Positions 8,480 to 64,000 of a stretch of 64,000 nt of DNA are shown one piece after another (within the stretch, counting starts at the first letter, position 1; each line of letters starts with the position of its first letter). The notes below the pieces were generated by a model, which did not search any database, was not told the origin of the DNA, and saw only the letters and a list, made by a program, of their open reading frames with translations. Source of the stretch: Paracyclopina nana (Eukaryota > Arthropoda > Copepoda > Cyclopoida > Cyclopettidae); assembly GCA_019096065.1 (NCBI GenBank), contig JAGUCH010000003.1, positions 9,548,001 to 9,612,000 on the forward strand, read 5' to 3'. Made by a program: the position numbers and the translations under genes.

Positions 8480-9870
8480 TACTGCATTACTCTGGTTAGA
8501 TGAAAATAGTCAACCTTTGTCACGAGAGATGAAGTCGTAATTGATAAGGAGCTGGTAATAATAAACCACAAAAGTTGTCATGGTTATCAAGGAAATGGGT
8601 GAAGAGAGGCGGAAATCTGGTCAAAACTAGATTTTCTGGGCGTCAATTACTGTAACAGATTACTTACACTCACATTAATAAAAGTACTAGAACATCTTAT
8701 CGAGTCTCAGCTTTTTTCAATTTCAGTACCATGAACTGAAAACAAAGTGGAAGCTATGAAACCGAATCTCCTTATTTTGATATTTGTTTTGAAAAAGTTG
8801 TTGAGTCAAAAAAAAACAATGACTGACGGCAAAAAAGTACATTTGATTTTAAAAATCAAGCTTCTTTTCTTATACTTTGTCAGTGTACTTTCCACATTTT
8901 TTATTCACATATTTGTTATTCAGTGAGCAGCTGAGCCAAAGCTGAGGAGATGCGTGTCACCATGAACATGTTCAAAGGTTACTGTGCATGTGGGATCAAA
9001 TGATGGAGAATCCTTTCCAGAATATGGTATAATTATAGAACTCATTACATCCTCTCCTTATTGCAGATCTCAAAGCCATTTAGGATAAAAGACGAATACT
9101 TAAATCAAGTGGCCATCCAAGGCCGAAAATGGCTGGCATAATTAACTAGGGTACCAAGCCTCTGACAAATGAGAAAAGTTTGACTCTCAATGTAGGCGCT
9201 AGAAAAGAACAAACCACAGGAAAATCGTCAATATCCTATTTTACTTTGAGACTTTTTAATTTTTCCCGGTTTTTGGAGATTTCCATTAATTAGAAAGAGC
9301 CTTACAAAGCCTTGTGACCTTAGTTATAGTTATCATACCACATGAGCTTTATTAGGCCCTAATTAATTTTTAATGATGTTGTGAGCCAAAAATTGGGCAG
9401 CTTTTTTGAAAAGAAGCAAAAAGGCGAAGAGAGCCTAAACTAAAGCATGATTGGACCCATCATCTTACTGGTATCCTTTGATTTGGAAGATTCCTGAGGA
9501 AGAAGCATCCAGAGCTTGGTTACGCAATCTTGAAAAAGGCTGTATTTTTCCTGCTTCTCATTATAAAAGGATTACTGCGATCAAGATTGCCCAAGGTATA
9601 TCTTTCCTAAAGGAGCATTTTCCTTGGCAGTTATTAAAAGTTGGTTTTCCAATTTAAATTCATAGAAGCAAGCTCTATGAGATTATTGCTCTCATTATTC
9701 CTGGGATGATTTCATTAACAATATAGTGTCAAGCATAACTTTTTCCAGATTACCTTGGAATTTAGTGTACTTGTGATATTTTCGTAAATAAGCTGTTTTA
9801 GCTACCATTTTTAGCTTCAGAAATGGAGAAAAATGTCCACAAAATTAAGGTATATTTTTTAAGAAGCTTT
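8480..9870. other. Intergenic, no recognised gene
   Basis: This AT-rich stretch lies between the GPCR gene and the 3' end of the single-Ig gene. One open frame at 9451-9657 resembles no family I know and has no splice or initiation context that persuades me. Confidence 0.5.
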
Positions 9871-9874
9871 TTGC

Positions 9875-10381
9875 TTAAATATAAAAGGCAATTATCACAC
9901 TGGCCAGGAAAAGCCAGGTTGGAATCAAAAGTTTGGCACATTGGCTGACAATAAATAATTTGTAGACCACAACGGGCTCTTCACTACCTTGCACTGCCAA
10001 TTGGCATGTGTATAGTCCCATATCACTCGACGATATGTTGTTCAGCTGGATCCTAAGGCCATCTTGGTCCTCCAACTCTTCAACAGTGAACTGGCCTTTC
10101 ATGATGGGCTTTTTGCCTATGGCCAACACTTGGTAATTGGCCTTGTCAAAATCAGTGTGGAACACAATAATGTCCACATTTTGGCTGGCTTGATTGAGCT
10201 GGCAGACCACTTCGAAATCTTCTCCAATCACTTTGGTCACTGTGGTATTCGAGGTTATAAAAGCTGGCAAATCCCCGATATTGAGTTCGTCAGATTCCTC
10301 TGCTTCATCTTGTTGGCCTTCAACCAGCCCAGTGTGCCATAGAAGGCAACAAAGGAAAATCAGGTTGCACTTCCTCATCAT
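9875..10381 (-). CDS. Single-Ig-domain secreted or GPI-anchored protein
   Basis: This is one uninterrupted frame of 168 residues. Residues 1-22 form a signal peptide (CNLIFLCCLLWHTGLVEG core), followed by an acidic linker. One V/I-set immunoglobulin domain spans about 38-146. Its B-strand Cys is Cys60 (EVVCQL) and its F-strand Cys is Cys126 in the signature DMGLYTC. The C-strand Trp normally packed against that disulfide is absent (IIVFHTD instead). NTT at 45 and NIS at 115 are N-glycosylation sequons. The last 19 residues are hydrophobic and end at the stop, as in GPI-anchor signals. The nearest relatives I can suggest are lachesin-like adhesion proteins, but with one Ig domain instead of three. 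A splice acceptor (TTTTTTTGCAG) lies about 65 bases before the start codon, so a 5' untranslated exon is likely. The first of two adjacent ATGs was taken. Confidence 0.8.
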   Translation of the reverse strand: MMRKCNLIFLCCLLWHTGLVEGQQDEAEESDELNIGDLPAFITSNTTVTKVIGEDFEVVCQLNQASQNVDIIVFHTDFDKANYQVLAIGKKPIMKGQFTVEELEDQDGLRIQLNNISSSDMGLYTCQLAVQGSEEPVVVYKLFIVSQCAKLLIPTWLFLASVIIAFYI

Positions 10382-10449
10382 GGCTCTTTCATTTTACCCT
10401 TGACCAAATTGAATATGGCTGGATGTTCTCTTGCGATGTGTTTTTCTGC

Positions 10450-12850
10450 AAAAAAAGCAAATCCTTGATTTAGTCTGAAGAAAACAACACACAGATATAG
10501 GTGATGTTTTTGCCAGGGGAAACACCTGCGTTTTTGGGAAAAAAGGCTGTCATGCTATATTGATGTTTGACGTATGTATGTGCAAGCAAGCATTTTTTAT
10601 GAAAGCTAGGATTTTACTTCTCGATTGAACTTTTAAGGCTAGCAATCAAAGTGACTCTTGGTGAAAGTCAACTGCTTCTTTCTGCATAACATGAGCATGT
10701 GATTTGCACTATTACGACATTTCCCATTGATTGGAGCAATTGTAAAAGCGCTTGTAAAAATGGGTACATCATGCTTCATTTTTTTATTTGAATGATATAT
10801 TTGGCCATTACTCAAAAGTATGAAACAAGCCAAATCAGTGAGGCTCAAGCCAAGTTATGTGTTCGTGACTGACTTGGCCAATCAGAATAAGTGACGAACG
10901 CTTAACGAATTGCTTCAATTTGTGAATGCGTAGATGTATTCATGTGTTACAGTACAAGTGAAAAAAATAATGAGCCTAATTGCTCTTCCGCCAAAGTGCA
11001 TTACATATTTTTCAGTTTTGAGCAGTTGACTCTCACTCAACCTCACCGCGATTGCTTGCCTCAAATGTACAATCTTAAAGTAATTTCCTAGTTTTCGCTA
11101 TGGAAGCTGTTAGGCTCACCTGATCAAACGTTCAGTGGGGCTTTGTTGCACCCATCAGTCTTCGAGGAATTAAAGTTTTGCAGCTTGGCTTGCCGCACAA
11201 AAATCTACTGTGTAGCAGCTATCGATGCTGCTGCTGTTGCTGAAGGTGCACAAAAGCTCTCCTCCACTTGGCTTTTATTTCAAGCTCGATTTCACATCAT
11301 CCTTTGTCGAAGCAAAGTTAGATTAGCTATCTTAACTTTCCTTTTCCTCATCAAACTTGTCCTATTAAAAGATCTCAAAATGGCAGAAATGCTCAAGTTA
11401 AATGAGCGTTTTTCCTTGCCAAATTCAGTTTGAGTTGGCTAAAACTAGCATAAAATGTGAAAACTTAAAATTTTCCAAAATAGATGAACTTTTCTTTGTT
11501 AAAAAGCTTGGCTAATATGGAACCATGTATGATCTGGATGGATCAAGTTGTCTCCCTTCCAAGAAAAGTTAACAAGGTGATCCAAGAATTTTTCACGCCT
11601 CACTTATGTGTTACCCAATTTTTTGTTTCTGCTAGCTAAACGAGCCAGCAGAATTCGACCCTTGTTGTTGTTTTTGCTAAGCTTACACACGTCATTTTAG
11701 CCTAATTAATATGGATGCATACTATGTAATGGTGAAGTACATTTTGAAACAAAAAAATAAAGGGTTGAGTTTTTGGAAAGAGAAATCTTTTTGCATTGAA
11801 ATCGACCTTTGTAAAAGTTGATGAAGTGAGCACATTCTATGTTAATAATGCACAAATCGTAATCAGATCTCTTTTTCGTATCAGCATTTACACGCCCCTC
11901 TAAATTTCACCTTATATTATTCATATGTGCAAGCTTTGGGCGGGTTGCATTTGCTAAATTTTTTTGGCAACATTTAGCACACATATGACCTTCGCGTGCA
12001 AAATGTCAATGCACCTTTCTCAAAGCTCACACAAGTTCACAAAAGCTGTTGTGCTATTTTGAGCAAAAATGTCATCGATCTCTATTTTTTGGGGGGAACA
12101 ACTGAGATGATTTTCCCCCTCCATTCAAGCCATATAAAAGAAGTTTGACAGAACAAAAGAAACCATGCTTGCTTTTAATGAAAAAACTGGCCAAATCTGC
12201 CTCTCTTGCGATTTGTAACTGATGGCTTTCTCTTTTCAGCATTATACCCATCGTTTGGTACTGTTTACCTAATTTAAAAAAAGTGAAGCTCAAATGCACT
12301 AAAAATTGGAGGTTGGTGATTGAGTCTTATATTAGCTGTATGAATTTTAAAACATACAGACTATCCCACAATTTTTGGGGTAATTAGAGTTGCTAAGCAA
12401 GGCACTCAAAGATCGAATTGAGAGTCGAGCTGATTGCATCATTTACAAATAGGCCAAAAATTGTATGCTCGGTTTTACTGAAGTAGGAAAGAAAAATGTC
12501 ATGGGACAGTCTGTATGAAATTCCGTCAAAATCTGATATCAACTTTTGAAATGTCACCAAAATGCAAGTTGAAAAAATACCTACTTGAAATCATTCATTT
12601 TTGGGGGCCAATTAGCTGCTTTCTAATTCTCACGCAGTAAAAATCAGTTGACAACTTGCCTAAGAATAATTTTCGTAAATATTTGCTTTAGGCGAGTAAT
12701 TTGACCATAAAGAACGCAAGCATCAGGGGGGTCTCGTAAGTGAGTTCTTGACGCAAGTTTTGCATTCTACAATCACCAAATCTGTTTGCCTTAGCCTAGG
12801 TGGCGCTAGTAGTTCTTACTACATAGCGCGTGAGCTCAAGTGACGTGACA
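10450..12850. other. Intergenic, no recognised gene
   Basis: This is AT-rich sequence upstream of the single-Ig gene, which reads leftward. The leader exon of that gene probably lies here but cannot be located. The longest open frame (11143-11433, +) shows no domain, signal or splice logic. Confidence 0.45.
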
Positions 12851-12856
12851 GTTATT

Positions 12857-13023
12857 GGCTTAGTCTTTCGCAAGTTTTGCTTAGTCACGCTATTTAAATA
12901 GCTCATAACATAAAACGTATTTAAATAGCAGCTATTTAAATACATCCAGAGGCTATTTAAATACATTTTATGCTATGAGCTATTTAAATAGCGTGACTAT
13001 GCAAAACTTGCGAAAGACTAAGC
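12857..13023. mobile_element. Palindromic MITE, family P (copy 1)
   Basis: This is a 167-bp near-perfect palindrome. It starts GGCTTAGTCTTTCGCAAG and ends with the complement CTTGCGAAAGACTAAGC. The interior carries repeated TATTTAAATA blocks and a GTGACTA motif on both sides. It matches the element at 40009-40176 almost base for base. It has no coding capacity. Confidence 0.85.
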
Positions 13024-13213
13024 TCTAGAAGCAAGCGGGCTAATCTCAATCGTTTTCAACAGAGCTCCCAGTTAAGTTCTGTCTTTTTAAAGAAAAGTAT
13101 GCGATTGGGCATTTATTGCTAATTTAAGGTGGGATATGCAAATTTTTGGAAGTGAAATCCACAGATTTCTATCAAAATGTCTTGATGCCTACCACATCTC
13201 AGTCAGACTGTGT

Positions 13214-13325
13214 GGCTTAGTCTTTCGCAAGGTTTGCATAGTCACGCTATTTAAATAGCTTATAACATAAAACGTATTTAAATAGCTTTTATGTTATGAG
13301 CTATTTAAATACCGTGACAATGTGT
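13214..13325. mobile_element. Palindromic MITE, family P (truncated copy 2)
   Basis: It opens with the same GGCTTAGTCTTTCGCAAG end as its neighbour and has the same TATTTAAATA core. The middle is shorter, and the far terminus is lost after the GTGAC motif near 13310. Confidence 0.75.
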
Positions 13326-16479: not shown

Positions 16480-16873
16480 TAGGTGGATCCCACAACATAG
16501 CCAGCTAAGCTTAAGCAAAAGCAAGGTAACTTTGATTACATATTTCTCAGCAACTTCTCAGCTGATTCGAACCAAAATTGGTAGGATTCATCAGAGTTGC
16601 CTTATAATTGTTGTTGTCAAATTTAGTGCAAATCCGAGGCTGCTAAGTGGTACCCAATTTCCCTTTGCTTAACCCACCTTTGCTTTGCTTAAAACCAATC
16701 TTTTGAATGGGACCTCGGATTTGGACTGAATTAGGCATGAACAATTATAAGGCAACTCTGATGAATCCTACCAATTTTGGTTCGTATCAGTTGAGAAGTT
16801 GCTGAAAAATTCGCAATCAAAGTTACTTTGCTTTTGCTTAAGCTTAGCTGCCTAATGTTGTGGGATCCACCTA
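16480..16873. mobile_element. 394-bp inverted-repeat element, family G (copy 1)
   Basis: The element begins TAGGTGGATCCCACAACAT and ends with its complement ATGTTGTGGGATCCACCTA. The whole element is close to palindromic: AGCTTAAGCAAAAGCAA and ACCAAAATTGGTAGGATT recur inverted on the far side. The central part is asymmetric and fixes its orientation. It ends in TA at both borders, consistent with TA target duplication. Confidence 0.88.
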
Positions 16874-17319
16874 TTTGCTCAAAATTATATTCTACGCGCC
16901 TTGGCCCAGGACACCTAAGTCAATTAATGGCAATAAAACTTAAAATTGGCCAATTTACGCATTTTATCGTTATTTTTCCAGTTTTGTTAAGCCACAATCG
17001 GCCTTATATTAGGCAATTCTTGATGAGGCCATTTTTTTTACCTTTTTTAGCTGTTGTATTGCCTTATAATGTTTGCATGATAAGTAGGTGAACAGGCCCC
17101 TGAATTAAATAGAGCTTTTTTATAGCATACCATACAAAATTGGCTATTCAAATACAAAAATGGATTATAAGATGAAGTCTTTTGTAAGCTTGTAATCTGA
17201 TGCAAAATTGCCGGGCAATTTTGCAAATTAGCCAATCAGGCTGATTACAACGAAAAAGTATCTTATTTCATTGGATTCGGAGAGCATAAACATTCTACAG
17301 AACAGTAAAATTATGTTAT

Positions 17320-22436: not shown

Positions 22437-22677
22437 TTTTTCGCTGCTTTTTCAACACACTCTTTTATGTTTCATCACTTGTTCTAACAACACATCCAAC
22501 TACTCTCACAATTGTCAATTGGGCAAAATTGCTCCTTCTAACTATATAAACGCACTATGAGGGAAAATGGGGGGCAAAAATGGAACTGGAAATATCTAAA
22601 ATAATTTTTTTCAAATATCTATAGTTTAACAATTTTTTAAATGGCAGGCTCGCTTAGGGTAGAAATTCAAATGTTAA

Positions 22678-23071
22678 TAGGTGGATCCCACAACATTAGG
22701 CAGCTAAGCTTAAGCAAAAGCAAAGTAACTTTGATTGCGAATTTCTCAGCAACCTCTCAACTGATTCGAACCAAAATTGGTAGGATTAATCAGAGTTGCC
22801 TTATAATTGTTCATGCCTAATTCAGTCCAAATCCGAGGTCACATTCAAAAGATTGGTTTTAAGCAAAGCAAAGCTGGGTTAAGCAAAGGGAAATTGGGTA
22901 CCACTTAGCAGCCTCGGATTTGCACTAAATTTGACAACAACAATTATAAGGCAACTCTGATGAATCCTACCAATTTTGGTTCGAATCAGCTGAGAAGTTG
23001 CTGAGAAATATGCAATCAAAGTTACCTTGCTTTGCTTAAGCTTAGCTGCCTAATGTTGTGGGATCCACCTA
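22678..23071. mobile_element. 394-bp inverted-repeat element, family G (copy 2)
   Basis: It has the same termini and the same 394-bp length as the copy at 16480-16873. The asymmetric centre is reverse-complemented, so the copies point in opposite directions. It lies about 240 bp upstream of the exchanger start codon, so it may sit in or near that promoter. Confidence 0.88.
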
Positions 23072-25179: not shown

Positions 25180-27385
25180 GTATTTTCAACCATTTGTGCA
25201 CACGTACTTCACGGTGAAATAATCATGATTGTTTCCACGACCTGCCGTAAATTTCCAATTTTTTCGGGAAATCCTCCGACCTTGCTACAAAGCGCGTGAG
25301 TTTACTGCCATAATTATGCTGCTGCTGATGGTGACAAAGTTAATTGAGCTGTGCAACCTTGCATGTCTAATAAATTGGATGTCTTGATATCACATGTCTG
25401 CACATTTGCATTTTGACATAACAAAGTCTCTGAGAATCTTGACGTAGAGATTGTATAACCTTTGTGGTTTAATTTCAGTTTTGTAAACTAAAAACCAAAT
25501 TGAAAAGAAGTGTCATGAAATTGAGATTTCAATTTTTTTTTTGCCAAAAAATGCTCTTTATTAATTCCGCCAAAATAGCGTGAAATTTAACTACTTCATG
25601 TAAAAACTGAAATGCATCATTTTATACAAACCTAATATGATCTTGGAAATTTGTAAATTGAGTGAAAGTAATAATAGATGAACACCGCATTAGATGATGC
25701 GCCCAGATTTTCGACACATTTTCTAGATGAACAAAAGTGTGCTGATAAATGAGAAATGTTTTGCCCCAGAAGCCATTCTTCTTATTAAATAATTCTAATT
25801 CTTTTTCCTTGGGGCAAAAATAAAATTCTTCTACTGCAGCCAGCCCAAAAATTAGTTGGCTTCTTTTGTGAAAATGGATCGATTTGGCACGTGAGTCACG
25901 ACCGGAATTTGCCTAGGAAAACACCCAACAACATCTTCATGCGAAGAATTAACCAATTTCTGGAGCCGAGCCTGAATTTCTCAGGCGCCAAATTCTACCG
26001 GATGATCAATGCAAATGCACTTTTCTGTTGCTTGCATTTTTCTCTATTGATCAGACAAAAGCATTCATTTCTCTTGAATTTGAAAGTGCGGTGTCAGAAC
26101 TTCGTTTGCCGGTAATAATACTGTATAGGAAAAGTGCATTTTCAAACGCTACACAAAAATTGCCTCAATGGCACAATGGATTTTTCGGCCTTTTTGAAAT
26201 CATCACAATCCACTTTTGCTCTCCTAAATAAATTCCATTTTTTGCAATGGCTTACTTTTTTTAAATATTTGATTTTAGTCAAATTATCATACAATGTACT
26301 AGTTTTTTTAAAAGTGTCTATTGAGTTTCAAGCAATGAATATGCCATTTTCGTTATGCGAGCCATAGCTGCAGAATAATCCACTGTGCATGGGCTATGAT
26401 GACAGCCACAAACTCACACAATTGCACTGCAAAAAAGGGTCTGATAATGAGTTTGCATTGTGTGGTGTTGAGCACTTGAAAGTGAGGCAATTATTTTGGA
26501 TTGGCGCTATTTGCTAAATGATTGTAAAAGATATTTAACTTTAAAAAAGGGCCTATTAGTAATATGCACTAAGATTTATTGCATGTTTGTTTTTGGCAAA
26601 ATGAGCACACACTTTGTAGCCCTTTTTAATTTATCAAACTGCCTATAAAAATACTTAAAAAAGGAAAATTATAGTGTTCGGCTTGAGAATTGGTGCTTTT
26701 ATGAAAAGTTGCTGAAGCAGCAGAGATCTTTTGTGATTTATTGATCAATTCCAATTTCATTCCAAATGAAAATAAATCAGAAATCTGTAAGGCCCGCCCA
26801 TGGCCAGTTTTCTTAATCTGCTCATTAAAAGTGGAGCAGAATTTCAAAGCCTCTGTGCATATATTTACAAAATGTAGCCAATTAGCCCTGAAAAGAGTCT
26901 TTTCCAGTCTATTAGTCCATTCATGAGATTGGGGTTACGGCTCGGGTCAATAACCGATCAACCGTTTCGTTATGAATTCAAAATTCGCATTATTGGCAAG
27001 CATCAAATTCTCAATCCTAGAATATATTTTAAAATTAGTTGCATGGCATTTTTTTCGGGAAATGCAAAGTTTCACTTTTACATTTCTGTTTTTATTTGTG
27101 GCTTGATTGCTCAATTTTAAGGCACATAAATCAAATTATTACGTGAGGTAGCCATTGAAAAACCAGTCGATAAATCAAAGCATTTAATTGCTTCATGAGA
27201 TGGAAAAAATTAACAGATCCATTACAGCAAGTTGGCAAATGGAAAAATACAATTCAAGCCTTTCGGGCACGCTTTTTGCAGCAATGCATAGCCCCAATTT
27301 GGCTTTTTTGTGGCCTGGATTATGGCATTCCTTTCAATCATAACCTGAGCTTAGCCATAAACCCAGCTTAAAAAGCAGTGATAGC
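25180..27385. other. Intergenic, no recognised gene
   Basis: The scattered short frames share no family features, and I see no splice-linked set. The stretch runs up to the left inverted repeat of the satellite-bearing block. Confidence 0.45.
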
Positions 27386-27984
27386 GGCCCGATCCGTGGC
27401 AGGTTTTTTCATAGGCACTTAGTGACTATGTAAACGTGACTATATACCAGCCTACTTAAGTAGCTACTATTTAAGTAGCTTTACTGCAAGTATTTAAATA
27501 GCATACCATGGCATTTAAATAGCATGTCAATGTGCTTAAATACTTGGTGACTATCAACAATAATAAGTAGTGTCAACAACAACTGTTTCTTCCAAAAAAA
27601 TCCATTTTGATCCGAGATTGGCTTATTTTATTTAAGCAATTGCTTTACAAATGTCAAAAATAACTAATCTTTGAGCAGCTCTCTTTAGATATTATCATAG
27701 ATCTTACTCCTCAGAAAGCACAACATTTAGAGAAACCAAGCCATAATTTATTTTCACAATTCTAAGAAATGTCTGAAACAATATACAAAGTTCAATTTGC
27801 AGTCATGAATGGCCAGAATTAGTGGTCGTGGAAGCCAGAGATTGCAGTCTTTCATGGCCTGAATTTGATGTCTTGAAAGCCTGAGAATATTAGTTTTGAA
27901 CTTATCGCTCTGTCATTGGCCACAAAATACCAATAAAGCCCCAATTGGCGGATTGACCTTCTCCTCAAGCATCTTTTCTGGTAC

Positions 27985-28330
27985 ATCTGCTTAAATCCGA
28001 GACCACAAAAATCCGCTCTGTTAAAATCTGCTCAGCAAAAATCGGTTAATTGCACATTAGATGAAAAAATTTGCTTAATCACTGTAACTTGACTTTACAG
28101 AAAATGCAAGGGATCCCAATCTTGATCCTGGGTCATATATGTACTCGTACAAGTTGCCAAATATTTTGGGTGATGAATCCTGATGAATATCTTTAAAATA
28201 TAATAATTTTTTTTGGGACAAAGATTTTCCCAGACATAAGTTTTTCGGAGTAGATAATCACGGAGCTGATTTTAACGGAATTGTTTTTAACAGTACGGAT
28301 TTTTGCAGATACGGATTTGAACAGAAATTT
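27985..28330. mobile_element. Imperfect inverted repeat of ~340 bp
   Basis: The left arm has TTAAATCCGAGACC, CAAAAATCCG and CTGTTAAAATCTG. The right arm carries the complements (CGGATTTTTGCAGATACGG, AACAGTACGG, CTGATTTTAACGG) in reverse order. It is noncoding and nested inside the large TIR block. Confidence 0.55.
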
Positions 28331-28750
28331 TTTTGGCCTCATTCCAGTGTGGTAGAGTGGCATGGATAAGGTGCAATGGAGGTGACTGGTAGAGTAAAGG
28401 CCGGTGTATTAAAGGACGGTCAGCTCACCAATTTTTCTTGAGGTTATATACTTTTTTTGGGGCCTAACTTACTAGATCACGAAGAAGGAATCAAGAATGA
28501 CTCAGTAAATGTCTACCTACCTATCCTGATGATTTAATAAAGGATCCTGCTTCTATCCTGCCTAGATTAGTTTATCACATTCATTTATGACATCAAAAAG
28601 ACCAATGATACAAAAATTCAACATCAAAAAGATACAGATAATTCATTAGCTCTTCAATTCTTGGATAGCACTTCATCATTGAAGCCATTTTAACATAGTT
28701 GACCAAACGTACATATTACTAGAAATAGAAAGCCTTCTTTATTGCACATG

Positions 28751-29208
28751 CACAGTGGTTCAAAAAGCCGTTTTCACGCTCAAGTAAAATTCCGCCAAAT
28801 CGCCAAATTCTCATTTTGACACTGATTATCAGATTCTTTTTGGGAGAACTTCTTAGCCACGAAAATAGCTCAAATTAGTGAAAAATGACAGAAAAAGGTT
28901 GAAATTCATCTTTACAATGAAAATTTGTTAGAAATAGTTTCCATGAGGGAAAACAGTAGAACAGCCAATTTTGCCCACTTTCAGGATTCTATAACTTTTG
29001 TTTGACATCGAATGACATTTAGCTATTATGGTTATGATGAAAATCAGACCCCATTCAATGATTATTCATCAAAATTGGCTGCGGAAATGTGCGGCATTGT
29101 GAGCTCTGAAAGTCAATTTTTAGCTTAGAGCCCTATGAAAATTGACTCCGACGATTTCGCGAGTTTTTTCCCCGTGCGCGTCTAGAAGGGATTTTGAACC
29201 ACTGTGAC
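28751..29208. mobile_element. ~460-bp element with CACAGTGGTTCAAAA ends
   Basis: CACAGTGGTTCAAAA at the left is matched by TTTTGAACCACTGTG at the right. ACATG flanks both ends and may be a target-site duplication. Its right end abuts, and is duplicated with, the start of the 87-bp satellite. Confidence 0.55.
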
Positions 29209-29234
29209 ATGATGTTTTAATTCAAATCATCCTC

Positions 29235-31405
29235 ACCTTCCACCAAACTCAGAGGCCACAGCTAACATATGCCTTGACATTAGTTCATGTGCCTCAATAT
29301 AGAGCAATCAAAGCTGCTCACCTTCCACTTGCGCGTCTAGAAGGGATTTTGAACCACTGTGACATGATGTTTTAATTCAAATCATCCTCACCTTCCACCA
29401 AAGTCAGAGGCCACAGCTAACATATGCATTGACATAAGTTCATGTGCCTCATACAGCTGGAAAAGCTGCTGCTCACCTTCCGCCAAACTCAGAGGCCACA
29501 GCTATCTCAAGCCTTGACATCATAAGTTCATGTGCCTCAAAAAAGAGCTACCAAAGCTGCTCACCATCCACCTAAGTCTGAGGCCACAGCTAGCATATGC
29601 CTTGACATATGACCACGTGCCTCAAAATAGAGCAATCAAAGCTCCTCCTTCCACCAAAGTCAGAGGCCACAGCCAACATATGCCTTGACATAAGTTCATG
29701 TGACTCAAAATAGAGCAACCAAAGCTGCTCACCTTCCACCTAAGTCCGAGGCCACAGCTTAATCATGCCTTGACATCATAAGTACATGTGCCTCAAAATA
29801 GAGCAGCCAAAGCTACTGCTCACCTTCCACCAAACTCAGAGGCCACAGCTATCTCAAGCCTTGACATCATAAGTTCATGTGCCTCAAAAAAGAGCTACCA
29901 AAGCTGCTCACCATCCACCTAAGTCTGAGGCCACAGCTAGCATATGCCTTGACATATGACCACGTGCCTCAAAATAGAGCAATCAAAGCTCCTCCTTCCA
30001 CCAAAGTCAGAGGCCACAGCCAACATATGCCTTGACATAAGTTCATGTGACTCAAAATAGAGCAACCAAAGCTGCTCACCTTCCACCTAAGTCCGAGGCC
30101 ACAGCTTAATCATGCCTTGACATCATAAGTACATGTGCCTCAAAATAGAGCAGCCAAAGCTACTGCTCACCTTCCACCAAACTCAGAGGCCACAGCTATC
30201 TCAAGCCTTGACATCATGAGTTCATGTGCCGCAAAATAGAGCAACCAAAGCTGCTCACCATCCACCTAATTCTGAGGCCACAGCTAGCATATGCCTTGAC
30301 ATATGACCACATGCCTCAAAATAAAGCAATCAAAGCTCCTACTTCCACCAAACTCAGAGGCCACAGCTAACTCATGCATTGACACAAGTTCATGTGCCTC
30401 AAAATAGAGCAGCCAAAGCTACTGCTCACCTTCCACCAAACTCAGAGGCCACAGCTATCTCAAGCCTTGACATCATGAGTTCATGTGCCGCAAAATAGAG
30501 CAACCAAAGCTGCTCACCATCCACCTAAGTCTGAGGCCACAGCTAGCATATGCCTTGACATATGACCACATGCCTCAAAATAAAGCAATCAAAGCTCCTA
30601 CTTCCACCAAACTCAGAGGCCACAGCTAACTCATGCATTGACACAAGTTCATGTGCCTCAAAATAGAGCAGCCAAAGCTGCTGCTCACCATCCACCAAAC
30701 TCAAGAGGCCACAGCTATCTCATGCCTTGACATCATAAGTTCATGTGCCTCAAAATAGAGGCTCACCATTAACTGCAATAATAAGTCCAAGGCCACAGCT
30801 AGCATATGCCTCAAAATATTGCAATCAAAGCTGCCCTCCTTCCACCAAACTCAGAGGCTACAGCTAACATACGCCTCAAAATAGAGCATTCAAAGATGCT
30901 CACCTTCCACCAAACTCAGAGGCCACAGCTAGCATATGCATTGACATAAGTTCATGTGCCTCAAACACAGCTGCAAAAGCTGCTGCTCACCTTCTGCCAA
31001 ACTAAGAGGCCACAGCTAGCATATGCATTGACATAAGTTCATGTGCCTCAAAATAGAGCAGCCAAAGCTGCTGCTCACTTTCCACCAAACTCAGAGACCA
31101 CAGCTAGCATATGCCTTGACATATGACCAAGTGCCTCAAAATATAGCAATCAAAGCTGCCCTCCTTCCACCAAACTCAGAGACCACAGCTAGCATATGCC
31201 TTGACATATGACCATATGCCTCAAAATATAGCAATCAAAGCTGCCCTCCTTCCACCAAACTCATAGGCCAAAGCTAACATATGCCTTGACATAAGTTCAT
31301 GTGCCTCAAAATAGAGCAACCAAAGCTGCTCACCTTCCACCTAAGTCCGAGGCCACAGCTAGCATATGCCTTGACATAAGATCAATTGCCTCAAAAAAGA
31401 GCATT
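29235..31405. repeat. Satellite A: ~87-bp monomers with higher-order repeats
   Basis: About 25 tandem monomers are built on GAGGCCACAGCTAGCATATG, CTTGACATAAGTTCATGTGC and CAAAGCTGCTCACCTTCCAC. A variant marker (GCTATCTCAA) recurs every 347 bp at 29501, 29848 and 30195, showing four-monomer higher-order units. Markers at 30454 and 30714 (GCTATCTCAA, then GCTATCTCAT) are about 260 bp apart, showing three-monomer units. The monomers are AT/GC mixed and noncoding. Confidence 0.92.
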
Positions 31406-34400
31406 TCTAGCACAACACTAGGCATCACTGATGAGAATCTGGCCGTTAAACCTTGAAAGAGAGAACTCCCCCAATTATTATCGACGTACCCCACCAGCTC
31501 ATCCATAGAGCAACACTTACTCTAACATTCTAAAGTGATCATAAATATCATTGCCATTCTAAGGCATGTAAGGTTGGACAGCTAGGCATCACTGATGAGA
31601 ATCTGGCCATTAAACCTTGAAAGAGTGAACTCTCCCAATTATTATCGACGTACCCCACCAGCTTATCCATAGAGCAACACTTACTCTAACATTCTGATGT
31701 GACCACTGATATGATTGCCATTCTAAGGCATGTAAGGTTGGACAGCTAGGCATCACTAATGAGAATCTGGCCGTTAAACCTTGGAAGAGAGAACTCTCCC
31801 AATATTATTCGACGTACCCCACCAGCTTATCCATAGAGCAACTCTTACACTAATTTGCTAACCCTCTAAAGTGACCACTGATATGATTGCCATTCTAGGG
31901 CAAGTAAGGTTGGACAGCTAGGCATCACTGATGAGAATCTGGCCGTTAAACCTTGAAAGAGTGAACTCTCACAATATTATTCGACGTACCCCACCAGCTT
32001 ATCCATAGAGCAACTCTTACACTAATTTGCTAACCCTCTAAAGTGACCACTGATATGATTGCCATTCTAGGGCAAGTAAGGTTGGACAGCTAGGCATCAC
32101 TGATGAGAATCTGGCCGTTAAACCTTGGAAGAGAGAACTCTCCCAATATTATTCGACGTACCCCACCAGCTTATCCATACAGCAACTCTTACACTAATTT
32201 GCTAACCCTCTAAAGTGACCACTGATATGATTGCCATTCTAGGGCAAGTAAGGTTGGACAGCTAGGCATCACTGATGAGAATCTGGCCGTTAAACCTTGA
32301 AAGAGTGAACTCTCCCAATATTATTTGACGTACCCCACCAGCTTATCCATAGAGCAACTCTTACACTAATTTGCTAACCCTCTAAAGTGACCACTGATAT
32401 GATTGCCATTCTAGGGCAAGTAAGGTTGGACAGCTAGGCATCACTGATGAGAATCTGGCCGTTAAACCTTGGAAGAGAGAACTCTCCCAATATTATTCGA
32501 CGTACCCCACCAGCTTATCCATAGAGCAACTCTTACACTAATTTGCTAACCCTCTAAAGTGACCACTGATATGATTGCCAATCTAGGGCAAGTAAGGTTG
32601 GACAGCTAGGCATCACTGATGAGAATCTGGCCGTTAAACCTTGAAAGAGTGAACTCTCCCAATATTATTCGACGTACCCCACCAGCTTATCCATAGAGCA
32701 ACTCTTACACTAATTTGCTAACATTCTAATGTGATCACTGATATGATTGCCATTCTAGGGCAAGTAAGGTTGGACAGCTAGGCATCACTGATGAGAATCT
32801 GGCCGTTAAACCTTGGAAGAGAGAACTCTCCCAATATTATTCGACGTACCCCACCAGCTTATCCATAGAGCAACTCTTACACTAATTTGCTAACCCTCTA
32901 AAGTGACCACTGATATGATTGCCATTCTAGGGCAAGTAAGGTTGGACAGCTAGGCATCACTGATGAGAATCTGGCCGTTAAACCTTGAAAGAGTGAACTC
33001 TCCCAATATTATTCGACGTACCCCACCAGCTTATCCATAGAGCAACTCTTACACTAATTTGCTAACATTCTAATGTGATCACTGATATGATTGCCATTCT
33101 AAGGCAAGTAAGGTTGGACAGCTAGGCATCACTGATGAGAATCTGGCCGTTAAACCTTGGAAGAGAGAACTCTCCCAATATTATTCGACGTACCCCACCA
33201 GCTTATCCATAGAGCAACTCTTACACTAATTTGCTAACCCTCTAAAGTGACCACTGATATGATTGCCATTCTAGGGCAAGTAAGGTTGGACAGCTAGGCA
33301 TCACTGATGAGAATCTGGCCGTTAAACCTTGGAAGAGAGAACTCTCCCAATATTATTCGACGTACCCCACCAGCTTATCCATAGAGCAACTCTTACACTA
33401 ATTTGCTAACCCTCTAAAGTGACCACTGATATGATTGCCATTCTAGGGCAAGTAAGGTTGGACAGCTAGGCATCACTGATGAGAATCTGGCCGTTAAACC
33501 TTGAAAGAGTGAACTCTCCCAATATTATTCGACGTACCCCACCAGCTTATCCATAGAGCAACTCTTACACTAATTTGCTAACATTCTAATGTGATCACTG
33601 ATATGATTGCCATTCTAGGGCAAGTAAGGTTGGACAGCTAGGCATCACTGATGAGAATCTGGCCGTTAAACCTTGGAAGAGAGAACTCTCCCAATATTAT
33701 TCGACGTACCCCACCAGCTTATCCATAGAGCAACTCTTACACTAATTTGCTAACCCTCTAAAGTGACCACTGATATGATTGCCATTCTAGGGCAAGTAAG
33801 GTTGGACAGCTAGGCATCACTGATGAGAATCTGGCCGTTAAACCTTGAAAGAGTGAACTCTCCCAATATTATTCGACGTACCCCACCAGCTTATCCATAG
33901 AGCAACTCTTACACTAATTTGCTAACCCTCTAAAGTGACCACTGATATGATTGCCATTCTAGGGCAAGTAAGGTTGGACAGCTAGGCATCACTGATGAGA
34001 ATCTGGCCGTTAAACCTTGGAAGAGAGAACTCTCCCAATATTATTCGACGTACCCCACCAGCTTATCCATAGAGCAACTCTTACACTAATTTGCTAACCC
34101 TCTAAAGTGACCACTGATATGATTGCCATTCTAGGGCAAGTAAGGTTGGACAGCTAGGCATCACTGATGAGAATCTGGCCGTTAAACCTTGAAAGAGTGA
34201 ACTCTCCCAATATTATTCGACGTACCCCACCAGCTTATCCATAGAGCAACTCTTACACTAATTTGCTAACATTCTAATGTGATCACTGATATGATTGCCA
34301 TTCTAAGGCAAGTAAGGTTGGACAGCTAGGCATCACTGATGAGAATCTGGCCGTTAAACCTTGGAAGAGAGAACTCTCCCAATATTATTCGACGTACCCC

Positions 34401-35940
34401 ACCAGCTTATCCATAGAGCAACTCTTACACTAATTTGCTAACCCTCTAAAGTGACCACTGATATGATTGCCATTCTAGGGCAAGTAAGGTTGGACAGCTA
34501 GGCATCACTGATGAGAATCTGGCCGTTAAACCTTGGAAGAGAGAACTCTCCCAATATTATTCGACGTACCCCACCAGCTTATCCATAGAGCAACTCTTAC
34601 ACTAATTTGCTAACCCTCTAAAGTGACCACTGATATGATTGCCATTCTAGGGCAAGTAAGGTTGGACAGCTAGGCATCACTGATGAGAATCTGGCCGTTA
34701 AACCTTGAAAGAGTGAACTCTCCCAATATTATTCGACGTACCCCACCAGCTTATCCATAGAGCAACTCTTACACTAATTTGCTAACATTCTAATGTGATC
34801 ACTGATATGATTGCCATTCTAGGGCAAGTAAGGTTGGACAGCTAGGCATCACTGATGAGAATCTGGCCGTTAAACCTTGGAAGAGAGAACTCTCCCAATA
34901 TTATTCGACGTACCCCACCAGCTTATCCATAGAGCAACTCTTACACTAATTTGCTAACCCTCTAAAGTGACCACTGATATGATTGCCATTCTAGGGCAAG
35001 TAAGGTTGGACAGCTAGGCATCACTGATGAGAATCTGGCCGTTAAACCTTGAAAGAGTGAACTCTCACAATATTATTCGACGTACCCCACCAGCTTATCC
35101 ATAGAGCAACTCTTACACTAATTTGCTAACCCTCTAAAGTGACCACTGATATGATTGCCATTCTAGGGCAAGTAAGGTTGGACAGCTAGGCATCACTGAT
35201 GAGAATCTGGCCGTTAAACCTTGGAAGAGAGAACTCTCCCAATATTATTCGACGTACCCCACCAGCTTATCCATACAGCAACTCTTACACTAATTTGCTA
35301 ACCCTCTAAAGTGACCACTGATATGATTGCCATTCTAGGGCAAGTAAGGTTGGACAGCTAGGCATCACTGATGAGAATCTGGCCGTTAAACCTTGAAAGA
35401 GTGAACTCTCACAATATTATTCGACGTACCCCACCAGCTTATCCATAGAGCAACTCTTACACTAATTTGCTAACCCTCTAAAGTGACCACTGATATGATT
35501 GCCATTCTAGGGCAAGTAAGGTTGGACAGCTAGGCATCACTGATGAGAATCTGGCCGTTAAACCTTGAAAGAGTGAACTCTCCCAATATTATTCGACGTA
35601 CCCCACCAGCTTATCCATACAGCAACTCTTACACTAATTTGCTAACCCTCTAAAGTGACCACTGATATGATTGCCATTCTAGGGCAAGTAAGGTTGGACA
35701 GCCAGGCATCACTGATGAGAATCTGGCCGTTAAACCTTGAAAGAGAGAACTCCCCCAATTATTATCGACGTACCCCACCAGCTTATCCATAGAGCAACAC
35801 TTACTCCTAACATTCTAAAGTGATCATAAATATCATTGCCATTCTACGGCAAGTAAGGTTGGACAGCTAGGCTTCACTGATGAGAATCTGGCTACTCTGA
35901 TGTAATTACTGATATGATTGCCATTCTAAGCCATGTAAGG
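31406..35940. repeat. Satellite B: 172-bp monomers with a 1,204-bp higher-order repeat
   Basis: About 26 monomers share GGTTGGACAGCTAGGCATCA, GAATCTGGCCGTTAAACC and CGACGTACCCCACCAGC, spaced 172 bp apart (for example at 31907, 32079 and 32251). Two main monomer types alternate (GGAAGAGAGAACTC and GAAAGAGTGAACTC). A further variant (ATTCTAATGTGATC) recurs at 33067/34271 and 33583/34787, each pair exactly 1,204 bp apart, which is seven monomers. The outermost monomers at the two ends resemble each other (CTCCCCCAATTATTATCG) more than they resemble the homogenised middle. Confidence 0.95.
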
Positions 35941-36159
35941 TTATTTTTAGGCCAAAATCGTTGGTTTATAGGTACCAATTTTTGGCGCCAAAAATCAGCT
36001 TTTATCTAGGCTAATTTCTCCACTTTCAAATGCGCCATTTTTCAAGTCCAAATTCGGCAGCTTTTGCACTCATAAAAAAGACCTGCAAAAAGATTTCATT
36101 ATTTAATTGATTCTAAACTATTAAGTACATTGATCCGTACCGTTTTTCAGCTTTTAAGT

Positions 36160-36935
36160 CATCTGTCGGTGATTTTTGAGGTTGAATCAGCGATTTTTGA
36201 GGTTGAATCGGCGATTTTGGATGCCTTCTTGGCGACTTTTGAGGCCGATTAGGTGATTTCCGAGGCCAAATCGGCGATTTTCGAGGTCGAATTGGCTATT
36301 TTCGAGGTCAAATCGGCGATTTTCGAGGCCGAATCGGCGATTTCCGAGGTCAAAATTGGCGATTTCCTAGGCAGAATCGGCGATTTTCGAGGCCGAATCG
36401 GCAATTTTCGAGGCCAGATTCGGCGATTTTCGAGGTCAAATCAGCGACTTTCGAGGTCAATTCGGCGATTTTCAAGGTCAAATTGGCGATATTTGAGGTT
36501 GAATCGGCGATTTTCTTGACTTAAGTCCGATTTCCGAGGTCGAATCGGCAATTTTCGAGGTCAAATCGGCGATTTCCGAGGCCGAATCGGCGATTTCCGA
36601 GGTCGAATCGGCGATTTCCAAGGCCGAATCGGCGATTTCCGAGGCCAAATCGACGATTTCCGAGGTCGAATTGGCTATTTTCGAGGTCAAATCGGCAATT
36701 TCCGAGGCCGAATCGGCGATTTCCGAGGTCAAAATCGGCGATTTCCGAGGTCAAAATCGGCGATTTCCGAGGTCAAAATCAGAGATTTCCGAGGCCGAAT
36801 CGGCGATTTTCGAGGCCAGACTCGGCGATTTTCGAGGTCGAATCGGCAACTTTTGAGGTCAAATCGGCGATTTTCGAGGTCAAATTGGCAATATTTGAGG
36901 TTGAATCGGCGATTTTCTTGACTTGAGTCTCACAT
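36160..36935. repeat. 21-bp heptad-coding minisatellite
   Basis: About 35 units are built on AATCGGCGATTTCCGAGGTC. Because the unit is 21 bp, open frames on both strands read seven-residue repeats (SAIFEVK-like on plus, STSEIAD-like on minus). A marker TCTTGACTTAAGTCC (near 36513) or TCTTGACTTGAGTCT (near 36915) recurs 402 bp apart, indicating a higher-order duplication. A few one-base length changes break each frame. Confidence 0.9.
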
Positions 36936-37006
36936 GCCGTTTTCCTTTGCAACGTCGGCGGTCGGCCCAGCAATAGTAAAATGTAAACAAAAGCAAACGT
37001 GCACAT
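36779..37006 (-). CDS. Possible signal-peptide and heptad-repeat reading frame
   Basis: The minus-strand frame starts MCTFAFVYILLLLGRPP, which looks like a signal peptide. It continues through TACETQVKK into IADSTSNIANLTSKIAD heptads with hydrophobic residues at regular spacing, as in coiled coils. It leaves the heptad phase at AESGLENRRFGLG because one unit has gained a base, and it stops soon after. The heptads resume in another frame further along (36732-36478). This may be a decayed or chance frame in a minisatellite. No promoter, intron or polyadenylation evidence supports it. Confidence 0.2.
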   Translation of the reverse strand: MCTFAFVYILLLLGRPPTLQRKTACETQVKKIADSTSNIANLTSKIADLTSKVADSTSKIAESGLENRRFGLGNL

Positions 37007-37320
37007 TTTGGGTGGTTATTTTTGGATTCTTCAAATAAGACGGCTGATTTTGGCTTTTTTGGGAAGTATTGGCATCATTTCTCAGCTCACAAGATGTCAG
37101 ACATAGTCAGCATGTATTTAAATACTATAAGGAAAAACTGGCTCAAAGACTGATCAAAAGCACATAGTCAGCCATGAGTTGCTTTTTATGTAGTGCAGCT
37201 CGCAATAGTCAGCCATTTTACTTCAATGAAATAAAAGACTCAAGCTGACTATCGCAGCTACTTAAGCACGTTTACATAGTCACATAGTGCCTATGAAAAA
37301 ACACGCCACGGATCGGGCCA

Positions 37321-40008
37321 GCATCTAGAATTAGAGCACAGTCCAAAAATTGCAAATCTGTCAAAATGTGGCGCTACTTGTATTTTCGGCCTGCTTAAAA
37401 TTAGCTAATAAGAGTATAATTAAAAAACAATCCACTAATTTGCCAAAAAGGAAAGCTAAAGTTGATGGGATTTTAACAGGTATGGAACCAATTTGAAGAA
37501 TGTCAAAAAGAGCAAGACAATGGCGCTACTTTGATTTTGCGAGCTTCAGCTGTCATCTTTTGAGTTCTTTGAACCTCTTTTTGTGCTCTTTGTAATCAGA
37601 TGATCATGGCCCACAAGTGATCCTTTTACAGCCCATACAACATTTGTGCCAAGCCCTTTATCTCAAATGCAGTGCAAGCAAAAAGTGAAACTTGGCCAAA
37701 TTATCACCGCAACTTATTTAATTATGAAATTATTTAGCTTGCTTTCACACTTCCATTTTTTGCCCCATTTTTAATGACTCACCTGGGTGGAAATTGCCCA
37801 CTTATACAATAATTAGGTGAGAAATTGCCCAGGTTTTTTTGGGGGAAACTAATAACTGACAACTTGGCGTGACTCTGCCGACGAGGAGGAAAATCGCATT
37901 TTTTAGCCATAAAAAGCCACAAGCAAACTGGAAAGCAGCACAATGTATGCAATAGGTAGGCATGTGGACTAAAAAAGAGTTCAATGCTTCCTAAATTCAA
38001 TTTTAAAATTAGGCCTGCTATTTAATGATCAAAAAGAACAAACTAGGCCCGATATGACTTGTTACTGCACTTGCAGCTATTTATGAGGCAATTATAAGCC
38101 AAAATTTGACGTTAATTACTCTAAGGTCTAGACTTGAAAACTAAAATGGCTTCATTTTCTAAAATTAGTTTTTGGGCCTTTTTTATGATGGCAATTGTCA
38201 CATTTTTGAGTCACAATTAATTTTTTTAAAGCAAGTTCAAAATTGGCCTTTTCTGGCAAGTTATGGCGACCATCACAAAACTATGAAAAATGTAAAATAA
38301 ACATAAAGCACTGTTTGATAAGTATTTTTTTTTTGCTATTCACTCAATGCAATCTAAAATAGCAAGGGAGAAGAATGAGACATTCACTCCTTTTTAAGGC
38401 ATGCACAGTGGGTAAATTGCATTTTTTCTGAGCCTTTAAAAGGAACTAGTCAACATATAGAAAATTGATTATTTTATTTTTGACTTGTCCAGCGAGAAAA
38501 GGGGCCAATTTATCCACTGTGGGATGAAGGAAGTGAAACTTGAATTTGCATGCCTCAGCTTGACTCTGTGTCAACTTTATGTGGAATATAAAAAAAGGAG
38601 TGATGTTACGTACCCGTTGTTTTAACTGGGTGGGCCGCATCACATAAAGTGTTCTCAGTTTAATTCTGAGCATCCAAGCCAGCTTTTTAATTATATTACA
38701 TAGCCTCTTTCTTCAAGCTCCTACACCAAAAAAATGCTGCATAGAAATGTTAATTAAAGCGCCGTTCATGTACTGCGTAATTCATCATTTTTGGACAGCC
38801 TTTCAATCAGTGTAAAAATCACATTTTGAGACTGATTCCAGTGCCAGATAAGTTTGCTAAAATGTGGAGCAGGTGAACCAGGCCTTATTATTCAACTATA
38901 TACTTAAGTTTGAAGAAGCTACTATGTTTAGCAGACCAGAGGGATGGTCAAAACTGAGGTAGCTCAAAAATCACCCATTATGCAGTAAAAAGGGTCTAAT
39001 AAAGTGGTAGGAACAGAGCATGCGCAATAAAACAAAAAAGAGCAAAAGCATTAACCAGTAGCCACACATTTTTTATGGCCCAGCATGAGCTGTAAATTTT
39101 CCCGAACTCGCCACATTTGAAAAGTGAAAAATGCCATGATTTATTTTTTGGCAACAGTTGCTCCCTAAAAATTGGCTATAAAATCGAGTTTTTAAATCCA
39201 ATTTAATGTGATTTAGGTGGCAAATATGGAGGCAATCGTAAAAAACTGCACCAAAAAAGGCCCTCGTCAGCTGATAGCTAACAAGAAGAGAGTGAAATAG
39301 CAATAATTGGACAAAATTGCAGCCTTGCAAAAATTTTCAATTTATTGCCAAAAATGACATCTGTGTGAGAAGTTGATGCAAAAAAGGGCTTCTCCATTAA
39401 TCATACGCGTTTCTGGGAAGGGAAAACATCTCTGTAAGTTATGGTGGTCAATTTGCGCATTTTTGCGCACTTAACTGTTTTCTAGCAATTTGTTTAGAGC
39501 TGGATATTTTGTGAGGTAAGTGAAGCAGCGCCTTTCCTTATGATGTGCGCGTGGAGCTTTACGCGCCGCTGCTCTTTACACGCACCGTAGAAATTTCTCA
39601 GTTGCTTCTCCACAGCCAATGTTGTGGCCAAACCCTTGGCTAAAACAGCTACATTTTATGCTACACTGAAAAAAAAACATGCACAGTGAATTGTTCTGCT
39701 TCTCTAGGCAACCGGACAAACTTGGTAAGCTGTTATGCTTGAAAACGTATTTCAATGGTCTGAAAGAAACTTATGGAAAACAACTTAAAAAAGTGTGACA
39801 AGAAGCTTATTTGAAATCAAATCGGGTTTTTATAGAATTAAGAGCGGTCTTCGCGCAAAAATAACTTTTTACAAAAAAGTGTGTTCATTACGCGAAAATG
39901 TGGCTTTTTGTGAAAATTGTATTGAAAATTATACTTTTTATGAAAATAGCATTAAAAAGTGCTTTTCATGAAATACAATAAAAAGTATTTTTTAACAATG
40001 TAGACTAA
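37321..40008. other. Intergenic, no recognised gene
   Basis: This is AT-rich and has only short frames. GCAGGTGAACCAGGCCTTA near 38870 matches one end of the inverted-repeat element at 43443-43672, so it may be a solitary or truncated copy end. Confidence 0.45.
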
Positions 40009-40176
40009 GGCTTAGTCTTTCGCAAGTTTTGTTAAGTCACGCTATTTAAATAGCTCATAACATAAAACGTATTTAAATGGCAGCTATTTAAATACATTCA
40101 GAGGCTATTTAAATACATTTTATGCTATGAGCTATTTAAATAGCGTGACTATACAAAACTTGCGAAAGACTAAGCC
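40009..40176. mobile_element. Palindromic MITE, family P (intact copy)
   Basis: This 168-bp palindrome has perfect GGCTTAGTCTTTCGCAAG termini and the TATTTAAATA interior. TAA sits on both outer sides, a likely 3-bp target duplication. It is nearly identical to the copy at 12857-13023. Confidence 0.88.
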
Positions 40177-40390
40177 TAAGGCCCTGTTCCCTAGTGACGA
40201 AAGGGCGATCCCATATTCGAATTTTCAGTCAAGTTACCATGCTAAAACAGCAACATTACTTGATCAGTAAAGTTCAGCTTGTTCTAGGCAAGTACGGTTC
40301 GTTTTAGCCATATTCAGTTGACCGCTGAAACGCCAACGCGTTGTACATCAGCAGCTGATGAGCAAAGTTAGCTTTTCTCTTGGCTCAATT

Positions 40391-61262: not shown

Positions 61263-61384
61263 GTTATTTCTGCTCATTTTATATGCAGATCCACCGCCTA
61301 CATTATTCAAAGCTTATATTATATAATTTACATTATTCTTTTACAATTAGAAAATAGAATTTCGCATTTTTATAGCACTTATCT

Positions 61385-63200: not shown

Positions 63201-63229
63201 AAATTCACAAGTCCAGTTCTTAAGAAAGC

Positions 63230-64000
63230 TTTTGTAAGTCTAGTCCAAACTTAAGTCATGCAAGTCTAGGCTATAAAACTTGACTTAGCTTTCAGGGATG
63301 AAGTCTCATCAAGGAGTGGTCATTTTTTCACTTCAAGCTTGGAAATCTGGCTGGCTAGGAATAAATCTAATTAAAAGTCCCATCAAGGAGTGGTCTTTTG
63401 CAAAAGTCAAGTCCAGTTCTTAGTAACTTAAGAAAGCTTAGCGAAATAAGTTTTTGTGCACTCTTACTTAAAGCAATGCTATCTAGTCCAAACTTAAGTC
63501 ATGCAAGTCTAGGCTAAAAGAACTTGACTTAGCTTTCATTGATGAAGTCTCATCAAGGAGTGGTCATTTTTTCACTTCAAGCTTGGAAATCTGGCTGGCT
63601 TGGAATAAATCTAATTAAAAGTCCCATCAAGGAGTGGTCATTTGCAAAAGTCAAGTCCGGTTCTTAGTAAATACAGAAAGCTTAGCCAAATAAGTTTTTG
63701 TGCACTCTTACTTAAAGCAATGCTGCCTAGTCCAAACTTAAGTCATGCAAGTCTAGGCTAAAAGAACTTGACTTAGCTTTCAGAGATGAAGTCTCATCAA
63801 GGAGTGGTCATTTTCTCACTTCAAGCTTGGAAATCTGGCTGGCTAGGAATAAATCTAATTAAAAGTCCCATCAAGGAGTGGTCATTTGCAAAAGTCAAGT
63901 CCGGTTCTTAGTAACTACAGAAAGCTTAGCCAAATAAGTTTTTGTGCACTCTTACTTGAAGCAATGCTGCCTAGTCCAAACTTAAGTCATGCAAGTCTAG
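63230..64000. repeat. 244-bp tandem repeat running off the right edge
   Basis: AAGTCTCATCAAGGAGTGG occurs at 63301, 63545 and 63789, exactly 244 bases apart. Each unit also has CTTGGAAATCTGGCTGGCT and CAAACTTAAGTCATGCAAG. The array is still running at the end of the window. Confidence 0.92.

Follow-up and report, generated by a model that had tools for sequence, protein, structure and literature searches.

Organization of element W

The window analyzed here, a 64,000-bp stretch of the copepod Paracyclopina nana genome (C3:9548001–9612000 of a 91.95-Mb assembly in 10 contigs), contains a 9,934-bp block on the plus strand that we call element W (window 27386–37319). The block is bounded by 53-bp terminal inverted repeats (TIRs) that start with GGCC. 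The left TIR (27386–27438, plus strand) begins with the 15-mer GGCCCGATCCGTGGC and is 92% identical across 53 bp to the right TIR (37267–37319, minus strand); the inverted-repeat listing gives the same end pair as 66 nt at 85% complementarity. The trinucleotide AGC lies immediately outside each end (27383–27385 and 37320–37322) and reads as a target-site duplication. Internal to the TIRs are a left subterminal region (27439–27885, plus strand) bearing TGACTAT and TATTTAAATA motifs and a right subterminal region (37099–37253, plus strand). The motif TGACTAT or its complement ATAGTCA occurs eight times in the two 450-bp ends of W and not once in the 9,034-bp interior. The inverted ends, the flanking AGC and the subterminal motifs, all proposed by a sequence-only reading of this DNA, are thus borne out.

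Three tandem arrays on the plus strand fill most of the interior, again as that reading had described. Array A (29387–31403) consists of units of about 88 and 85 bp within a 347-bp higher-order unit and is called in pieces by the tandem-repeat listing; array B (31418–35892) is a 172-bp satellite of 26.2 copies; and array C (36166–36917) is a 21-bp minisatellite of 35.6 copies. Arrays with a score of at least 100 cover 7,524 of the 9,934 bp of W (76%), as against 3,607 of the 54,066 bp in the remainder of the window. The small inverted repeats of the sequence-only reading are only partly features of W itself. They include a nested miniature inverted-repeat transposable element (MITE) with CACAGTGGTTCAAAA ends (28751–29206) and ACATG on each side, a copy of an abundant repeat (a query that includes it gave 477 first-look candidates in the genome, 40 of them scored), while 27976–28324 is a piece of another dispersed repeat present in tens of other places. 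A 155-bp tandem duplication (29168–29481), recognized from the tandem-repeat calls and by comparison with the sister copy C3b described below, includes a copy of the nested MITE end. No transposase-like frame was seen in W on reading its frames of at least 70 aa, which were not scanned against Pfam; the sequence-only reading had likewise seen none.

A five-copy family dispersed by transposition

Genome-wide, the 15-mer GGCCCGATCCGTGGC is matched without mismatch at just 10 sites, which form five facing pairs; queries with the 121-bp left end and with the 63-bp TIR each return 10 matches that resolve to the same five pairs. With up to two mismatches allowed, the 15-mer finds 161 sites as compared with 22 for the reversed control. 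The ends are therefore neither unique to the window nor unpaired elsewhere. Besides W, the pairs delimit C3b (C3:6273792–6279436; 5,645 bp), C8 (contig C8, 4201413–4205671; 4,259 bp), C1 (contig C1, 15260021–15266004; 5,984 bp) and C5 (contig C5, 5818980–5827171; 8,192 bp). The left subterminal region of W is 79–84% identical to those of C5, C1 and C8. As in W, reading the frames of at least 70 aa in the four other copies revealed no transposase.

The 3-bp flanks are AGC/AGC in W, CAT/CAA in C3b, AAA/AAA in C8, AGT/ACT in C1 and GTT/GTT in C5, so that the duplication is perfect in three of the five copies and agrees at two of three bases in C3b and C1. Three perfect duplications among five have a chance probability of about 6e-5 at the base composition of the window. 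When the ten 400-bp flanks were compared, no match was found between flanks of different elements; the other matches were 22 bp between the two flanks of C1 and a 143-bp repeat shared by the right flank of C5 and L040, a locus discussed below. W and C3b lie on one contig and are 99.4% identical over the left 1,365 bp (8 differences), which could suggest that the copies arose by segmental duplication. That explanation is for practical purposes refuted, as homology ends at the TIR, the flanks do not match, 3-bp duplications are present and the other copies lie on three other contigs. The block is a real transposon, as had been supposed, and one of five related copies, and there is good support for transposition that duplicates 3 bp of the target. 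Helitrons have neither TIRs nor target duplications. The W family has both, and so its members are not rolling-circle elements.

Tandem arrays inside the element

Each of the five copies carries arrays A, B and C, and in one order. Array A has a period of 88/85 bp in W and C3b and of 71 bp in C8, C1 and C5; array B, with a unit of 172 or 164 bp, has 26.2 copies in W, 7.0 in C3b, 2.0 in C8, 8.3 in C1 and 19.8 in C5; and array C has 21-bp units throughout. Together, the arrays make up 49–76% of the length of these five non-autonomous elements. Since every copy holds them, transposition disperses the arrays, and the earlier proposal that the element carries and spreads satellite DNA is upheld to that extent.

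The same proposal treated the arrays as cargo, and here the evidence points elsewhere. All 68 genome matches to the 172-bp unit fall within the five elements, as do all 23 matches to the 347-bp array-A stretch, which lie in W, C3b, C8 and C1; none is in C5, where array A has a 71-bp form. A query with array C and the right end gave, beyond the five elements, a weak array match at C1:3605212 (72%, E 1e-6) and two subterminal matches taken up below. Confinement holds for this assembly at the sensitivity of the search: very common words are skipped and large arrays may be missing from the assembly, so "only here" means here in this assembly. Classical satellites form arrays independent of mobile elements; none were found for the 172-bp and array-A units, nor for the 186-bp unit of a relative described below.

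The sequence-only reading further suggested a transposon that takes unrelated satellites to new sites, where they could expand as heterochromatin or centromere-like DNA. Indeed, the arrays travel with the element, B having reached 26 and 20 copies in two members, and Tetris in Drosophila virilis is a published case of such escape (PMC4079207). The tested units have no matches outside the elements, however, which leaves nothing to indicate seeded heterochromatin or centromere-like DNA, and an identical set and order of arrays in five elements argues against repeated capture. We consider seeding highly improbable. Instead, the arrays look intrinsic to the element, because their order is common to all five copies and satellites are also present in the two relatives described below.

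The arrays have changed locally. We compared 60 full-length B units (26 from W, 6 from C3b, 1 from C8, 8 from C1 and 19 from C5). All 19 C5 units are nearest to another C5 unit, with a mean difference of 1.2%, and four of the eight C1 units have their nearest neighbor in C1, whereas units of W and C3b often have theirs in the other member of the pair. C3b contains the dispersed-repeat piece found in W but has a single ACATG and no nested MITE. The 155-bp duplication in W copied the end of that MITE and thus postdates its insertion, so array growth continued after W and C3b separated. The pair and the nested MITE together give relative dates for this growth.

A transposase-bearing relative

The 150–155 bp just inside the right TIR of W match two sites on contig C6, at C6:5488303–5488452 (80%) and C6:4996060–4996214 (75%), each at the equivalent position beside a TIR. 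The two belong to larger elements that we call Y and X. Element X (C6:4980457–4996279; 15,823 bp) is flanked by TAA on both sides and has the TIR GGCTTAGTCTTTCGTCA... at its 4996060 side with an inverted copy at 4980457. Element Y (C6:5482251–5488517; 6,267 bp) has TIRs of the X type. A pattern for the inner X/Y TIR, with up to three mismatches, matches the genome at four sites and no others, namely the ends of X and Y; the reversed control has no site. Including these two, four of seven elements have perfect duplications (P about 4e-6). Counted over all seven elements, the fourteen 450-bp ends hold 44 occurrences of the TGACTAT/ATAGTCA motif and the interiors three, a clustering of the kind expected for subterminal transposase sites. 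Within the window, palindromic MITEs at 12857–13028, 13214–13322 (a copy without one clear end) and 40005–40180 have GGCTTAGTCTTTCGCAAG ends equal to the outer TIR of X and Y.

Element X carries a four-exon gene for a PIF/Harbinger transposase. In protein comparison, it has four stretches colinear with residues 11–84, 76–128, 126–178 and 178–392 of the 394-aa protein of L040, a Harbinger locus of the same genome. Aligned to the protein of a second locus, L041, the four stretches contain no stop codon, and the first begins with an in-frame methionine. The intervening junctions, assigned by eye, follow GT-AG (GATG/GTAAGC to TTCATAG/GATTCC, CAG/GTAGTG to TTACAG/TCGAGC and TTG/GTGCGC to TTTGAG/GGATT). 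The last exon matches the DDE_Tnp_4 profile (PF13359) at E 6e-25, and IDGT, AHDS and IERTFG motifs, which we take to carry the DDE residues, are present by eye. By eye, no transposase was apparent in Y among frames of at least 90 aa.

Both relatives are rich in tandem repeats. In X, which is 32% arrays, 15-bp arrays occupy intron 1 and a 17-bp array intron 3, followed to the right by a 186-bp satellite of 10.3 copies, further 15-bp arrays and a 29-bp array. Y contains a 149-bp satellite of 7.6 copies plus 14- and 18-bp arrays. The order mid-size satellite, short minisatellite, right end is common to all seven elements, and each of the seven has arrays that amount to 32–76% of its length.

The genome search with the 186-bp unit gave 17 matches, of which 12 lie in X, five diverged ones (77–86%) lie in Y and none lies elsewhere. 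The consensus units of X (186 bp) and Y (149 bp) align with a score of 94, which none of 2,000 dinucleotide shuffles equaled, and by this comparison the two are homologous. The 172-bp unit of W aligns with the 186-bp unit at a score of 45 (reached by 1 of 2,000 shuffles), colinear through AGGYATCACTGAT and GACGTACCCCAMCAGCT; single units aligned under another scoring gave 31, reached by none of 1,000. As a control, the W unit was compared with three further tandem units from the window, and 220, 90 and 194 of 500 shuffles scored as high. The 186-bp and 172-bp units are therefore probably homologous, and all three mid-size satellites are apparently related, the 172-bp unit to the 149-bp unit only through the 186-bp one.

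The satellites might also be functional parts of the element, acting as a spacer, a chromatin determinant or a factor-binding platform under selection. Consistent with this, all seven elements carry arrays at 32–76% of their length, the box GACGTACCCCAMCAGCT and a second motif recur at nearly equal spacing in the W and X units, and within the X transposase gene the arrays are limited to introns, leaving the exons intact. Conservation of the box is poor in Y, however, array B falls to two copies in C8, and 14 of the remaining 19 Harbinger loci lack any array with a score of at least 150. We regard such a function as unlikely on balance. A reading of the unit as containing a CENP-B box was set aside, the resemblance to its core being weak by eye.

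Harbinger loci and related repeats in the genome

A search with the DDE_Tnp_4 profile gave 25 hits that merged into 21 loci, of which 20 were fetched with about 8–10 kb each and one (C1:1906866) was left out. Arrays with a score of at least 150 are present in six of the 20, the most extensive being in L047, which is part of X (1,540 of 8,501 bp), and the next in L045 (1,040 bp). The closest transposase, that of L046 (75% over 214 aa), lies in a locus without such an array. Six transposase-bearing loci (L040, L041, L042, L044, L050 and L051) have TIRs AGGGCGTTCTCATATT, AGCCCGATTTCATATCACG and AGCTTGTTCTCATAAAC and 3-bp duplications AGA, TAT, TAT, AAT, AAT and ATT, found in a scan that required a 3-bp match; the other 14 loci yielded no convincing pair.

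Harbinger elements with other TIRs were considered as the immediate parent of W and rejected, as GGCCCGATCC-type motifs occur in the 20 loci only as MITE ends (L042 and L050) or as a lone 10-mer (L044) and never flank the transposase. With up to two mismatches, the pattern GGCCCGATCCTTRGCAGGTTTT occurs at 70 sites, 28 of them forward and 42 reverse, while the reversed control has no site. Thirty-eight of the 70, by our own count, form 19 facing pairs 70–799 bp apart, and these are therefore MITEs. Among the fetched loci with both ends readable, seven by our reading, the 3-bp flanks match in five (AAA, TTG, TTT, ATT and ATA on the plus strand) and not in L013 and L024. A long element with GGCCCGATCCTTRGCAGGTTTT ends was also sought and discounted: 19 of the 28 forward sites have a partner within 1 kb, nine have none among the matches listed (two of these being W and C3b), and only C9:4873069 has further partners among those matches, about 2 kb away. 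Another candidate was a 7-kb unit at C3:3441615–3455835, partly covered by L053, where two TIR-like ends are repeated three times, spaced 7 kb apart. It was dismissed, having no tandem arrays and, by eye, two gag-like frames between the ends and no transposase.

A proposed PIF/Harbinger-derived lineage with built-in satellites

The satellite homology together with the homology of the 155-bp end leads us to read these elements as members of one PIF/Harbinger lineage whose satellites are built in and vertically inherited. Under this reading, to which we assign a probability of about 0.78, W is a non-autonomous element of PIF/Harbinger descent, and its lineage has tandem arrays as a component of the transposon body. 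Its derivation from the transposase-bearing line is indicated by the subterminal homology and by the satellite homology with X, the direct comparison with Y not being significant. The elements would move by cut and paste with a 3-bp duplication, a PIF/Harbinger transposase acting in trans on W by recognizing its TIR together with the TGACTAT motifs clustered near it. In the intervals between moves, slippage, unequal exchange or the repair of gaps would lengthen and shorten the arrays, and this change in place would explain why array length is the main difference between sister copies. A common ancestor of W, Y and X may already have held the mid-size satellite, which would then have descended with the transposon and not escaped it. 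Mobilization in trans by an X-type enzyme is an inference, as is the mode of array change.

Several observations weigh against this assignment. The canonical PIF/Harbinger target is TWA (TTA/TAA), and although X has TAA/TAA, the duplications of the W family (AGC, AAA and GTT) are not TWA. The Y flanks, CAT and ATT, agree at one of three bases and form no target duplication. The outer 15 bp or so of the TIR is GGCCCGATCCGTGGC in W and GGCTTAGTCTTTCG in X and Y, and for this reason the X transposase may not act on W. A suggestive two-piece frame on the minus strand of X (element positions 9630–10794), which could represent the Myb/SANT second open reading frame, has no Pfam match. Among the satellites, direct alignment of the W 172-bp and Y 149-bp units is not significant (score 20, equaled by 1,496 of 2,000 shuffles), and neither are those of the short arrays (21 bp against 29, 18 and 23 bp; 123, 107 and 83 of 1,000 shuffles).

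The W subfamily could instead be moved by another superfamily with 3-bp duplications, such as a CACTA-like or Zator-like one, its likeness to X being confined to acquired end sequence. The dissimilar outer TIR and the non-TWA duplications would fit, as would the finding that a GGCCCGATCC-type motif never surrounds a transposase in the 20 Harbinger loci, a search restricted to that superfamily. Against this stand the position of the 155-bp homology, equivalent and adjacent to the TIR in each element, the probable homology of the satellites, and the six other Harbinger elements that likewise have non-TWA 3-bp duplications in the scan requiring a 3-bp match. We judge mobilization by another superfamily distinctly unlikely and favor the PIF/Harbinger-derived lineage.

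Other features of the window

Elsewhere, the window contains genes for an Na/H exchanger, an Ig V-set protein and STELLO. Two 358-nt inverted repeats (16518–16875 and 22676–23033; 98% complementary, 5.8 kb apart) flank the Na/H-exchanger frames, and each overlaps an inverted repeat of its own at 90%. At 57364–57912 lie short arrays based on the word TGAGC, whose periods are 17, 20, 37, 60 and 70. At 61356–64000, a 173-bp satellite of about 11 copies is closely followed by a 244-bp satellite that continues past the window end.

Relation to known systems

Transposons with internal satellites are already known, among them Tetris, tandem-repeat MITEs and Helentrons, and PIF/Harbinger is itself a known superfamily. 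A tandem-repeat MITE is reportedly present in Donax trunculus. Non-autonomous Helentron elements of oysters are said to contain satellite-like repeats; they resemble the present case in that arrays are carried by a mobile element and differ in that the W family has TIRs and target duplications. Nematode satellites are likewise said to hold a short conserved box inside otherwise diverged units. They are described as satellites and not as transposon parts, and the likeness is one of description.

Tetris of D. virilis is an apparently non-autonomous DNA transposon with internal repeats of about 220 bp and MITE-related outer ends (PMC4079207). It shares internal tandem repeats in a non-autonomous DNA transposon with W. 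The Tetris repeats are located within the TIRs and later gave rise to satellite arrays, whereas here the arrays lie between short 53-bp TIRs, unlike a Tetris-type foldback, and no escape is seen. The Xenopus elements miDNA4 and Xstir are tandem-repeat MITEs, and miDNA4 arrays vary in copy number in TIR elements (PMC12628747). These are miniature elements, while in P. nana several arrays fill elements of 4–16 kb that have a transposase-bearing relative.

Candidate autonomous PIF/Harbinger elements (PHIS superfamily) average about 4.1 kb, with TIRs mostly shorter than 60 bp and starting with A or G (PMC4482050). The 53-bp TIR of W with its initial G fits this description, and the lineage further resembles PIF/Harbinger in the DDE_Tnp_4 domain of X, its 3-bp duplications and the TAA flanks of X. 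It departs from the superfamily in the 15.8-kb length of X, with minisatellites in two introns, in arrays at 32–76% of length in seven of seven elements, in the non-TWA duplications of five and in the lack of a Myb/SANT match. Among the open-licence papers listed, none described satellite-filled PIF/Harbinger elements, or a PIF/Harbinger lineage with satellites in both transposase-bearing and non-autonomous members and with minisatellites in the transposase introns.

It is rather unlikely, in our estimation, that the satellites are a selectively kept and transmitted, box-bearing organ of the lineage, inherited by autonomous and non-autonomous members alike, that aids the element through chromatin, factor binding or repair and is held inside it. 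If they were, a satellite family would be evolving here as part of the anatomy of a transposon instead of as heterochromatin of the host. What one near chromosome-scale genome seems to offer is a ladder from the transposase-bearing X through the mid-size relative Y to five array-rich non-autonomous members. This ladder lets one ask whether internal arrays aid the movement or survival of a transposon and how fast they grow, and it bears on what keeps satellites from escaping and on the old question of how satellites and transposons originate from one another.

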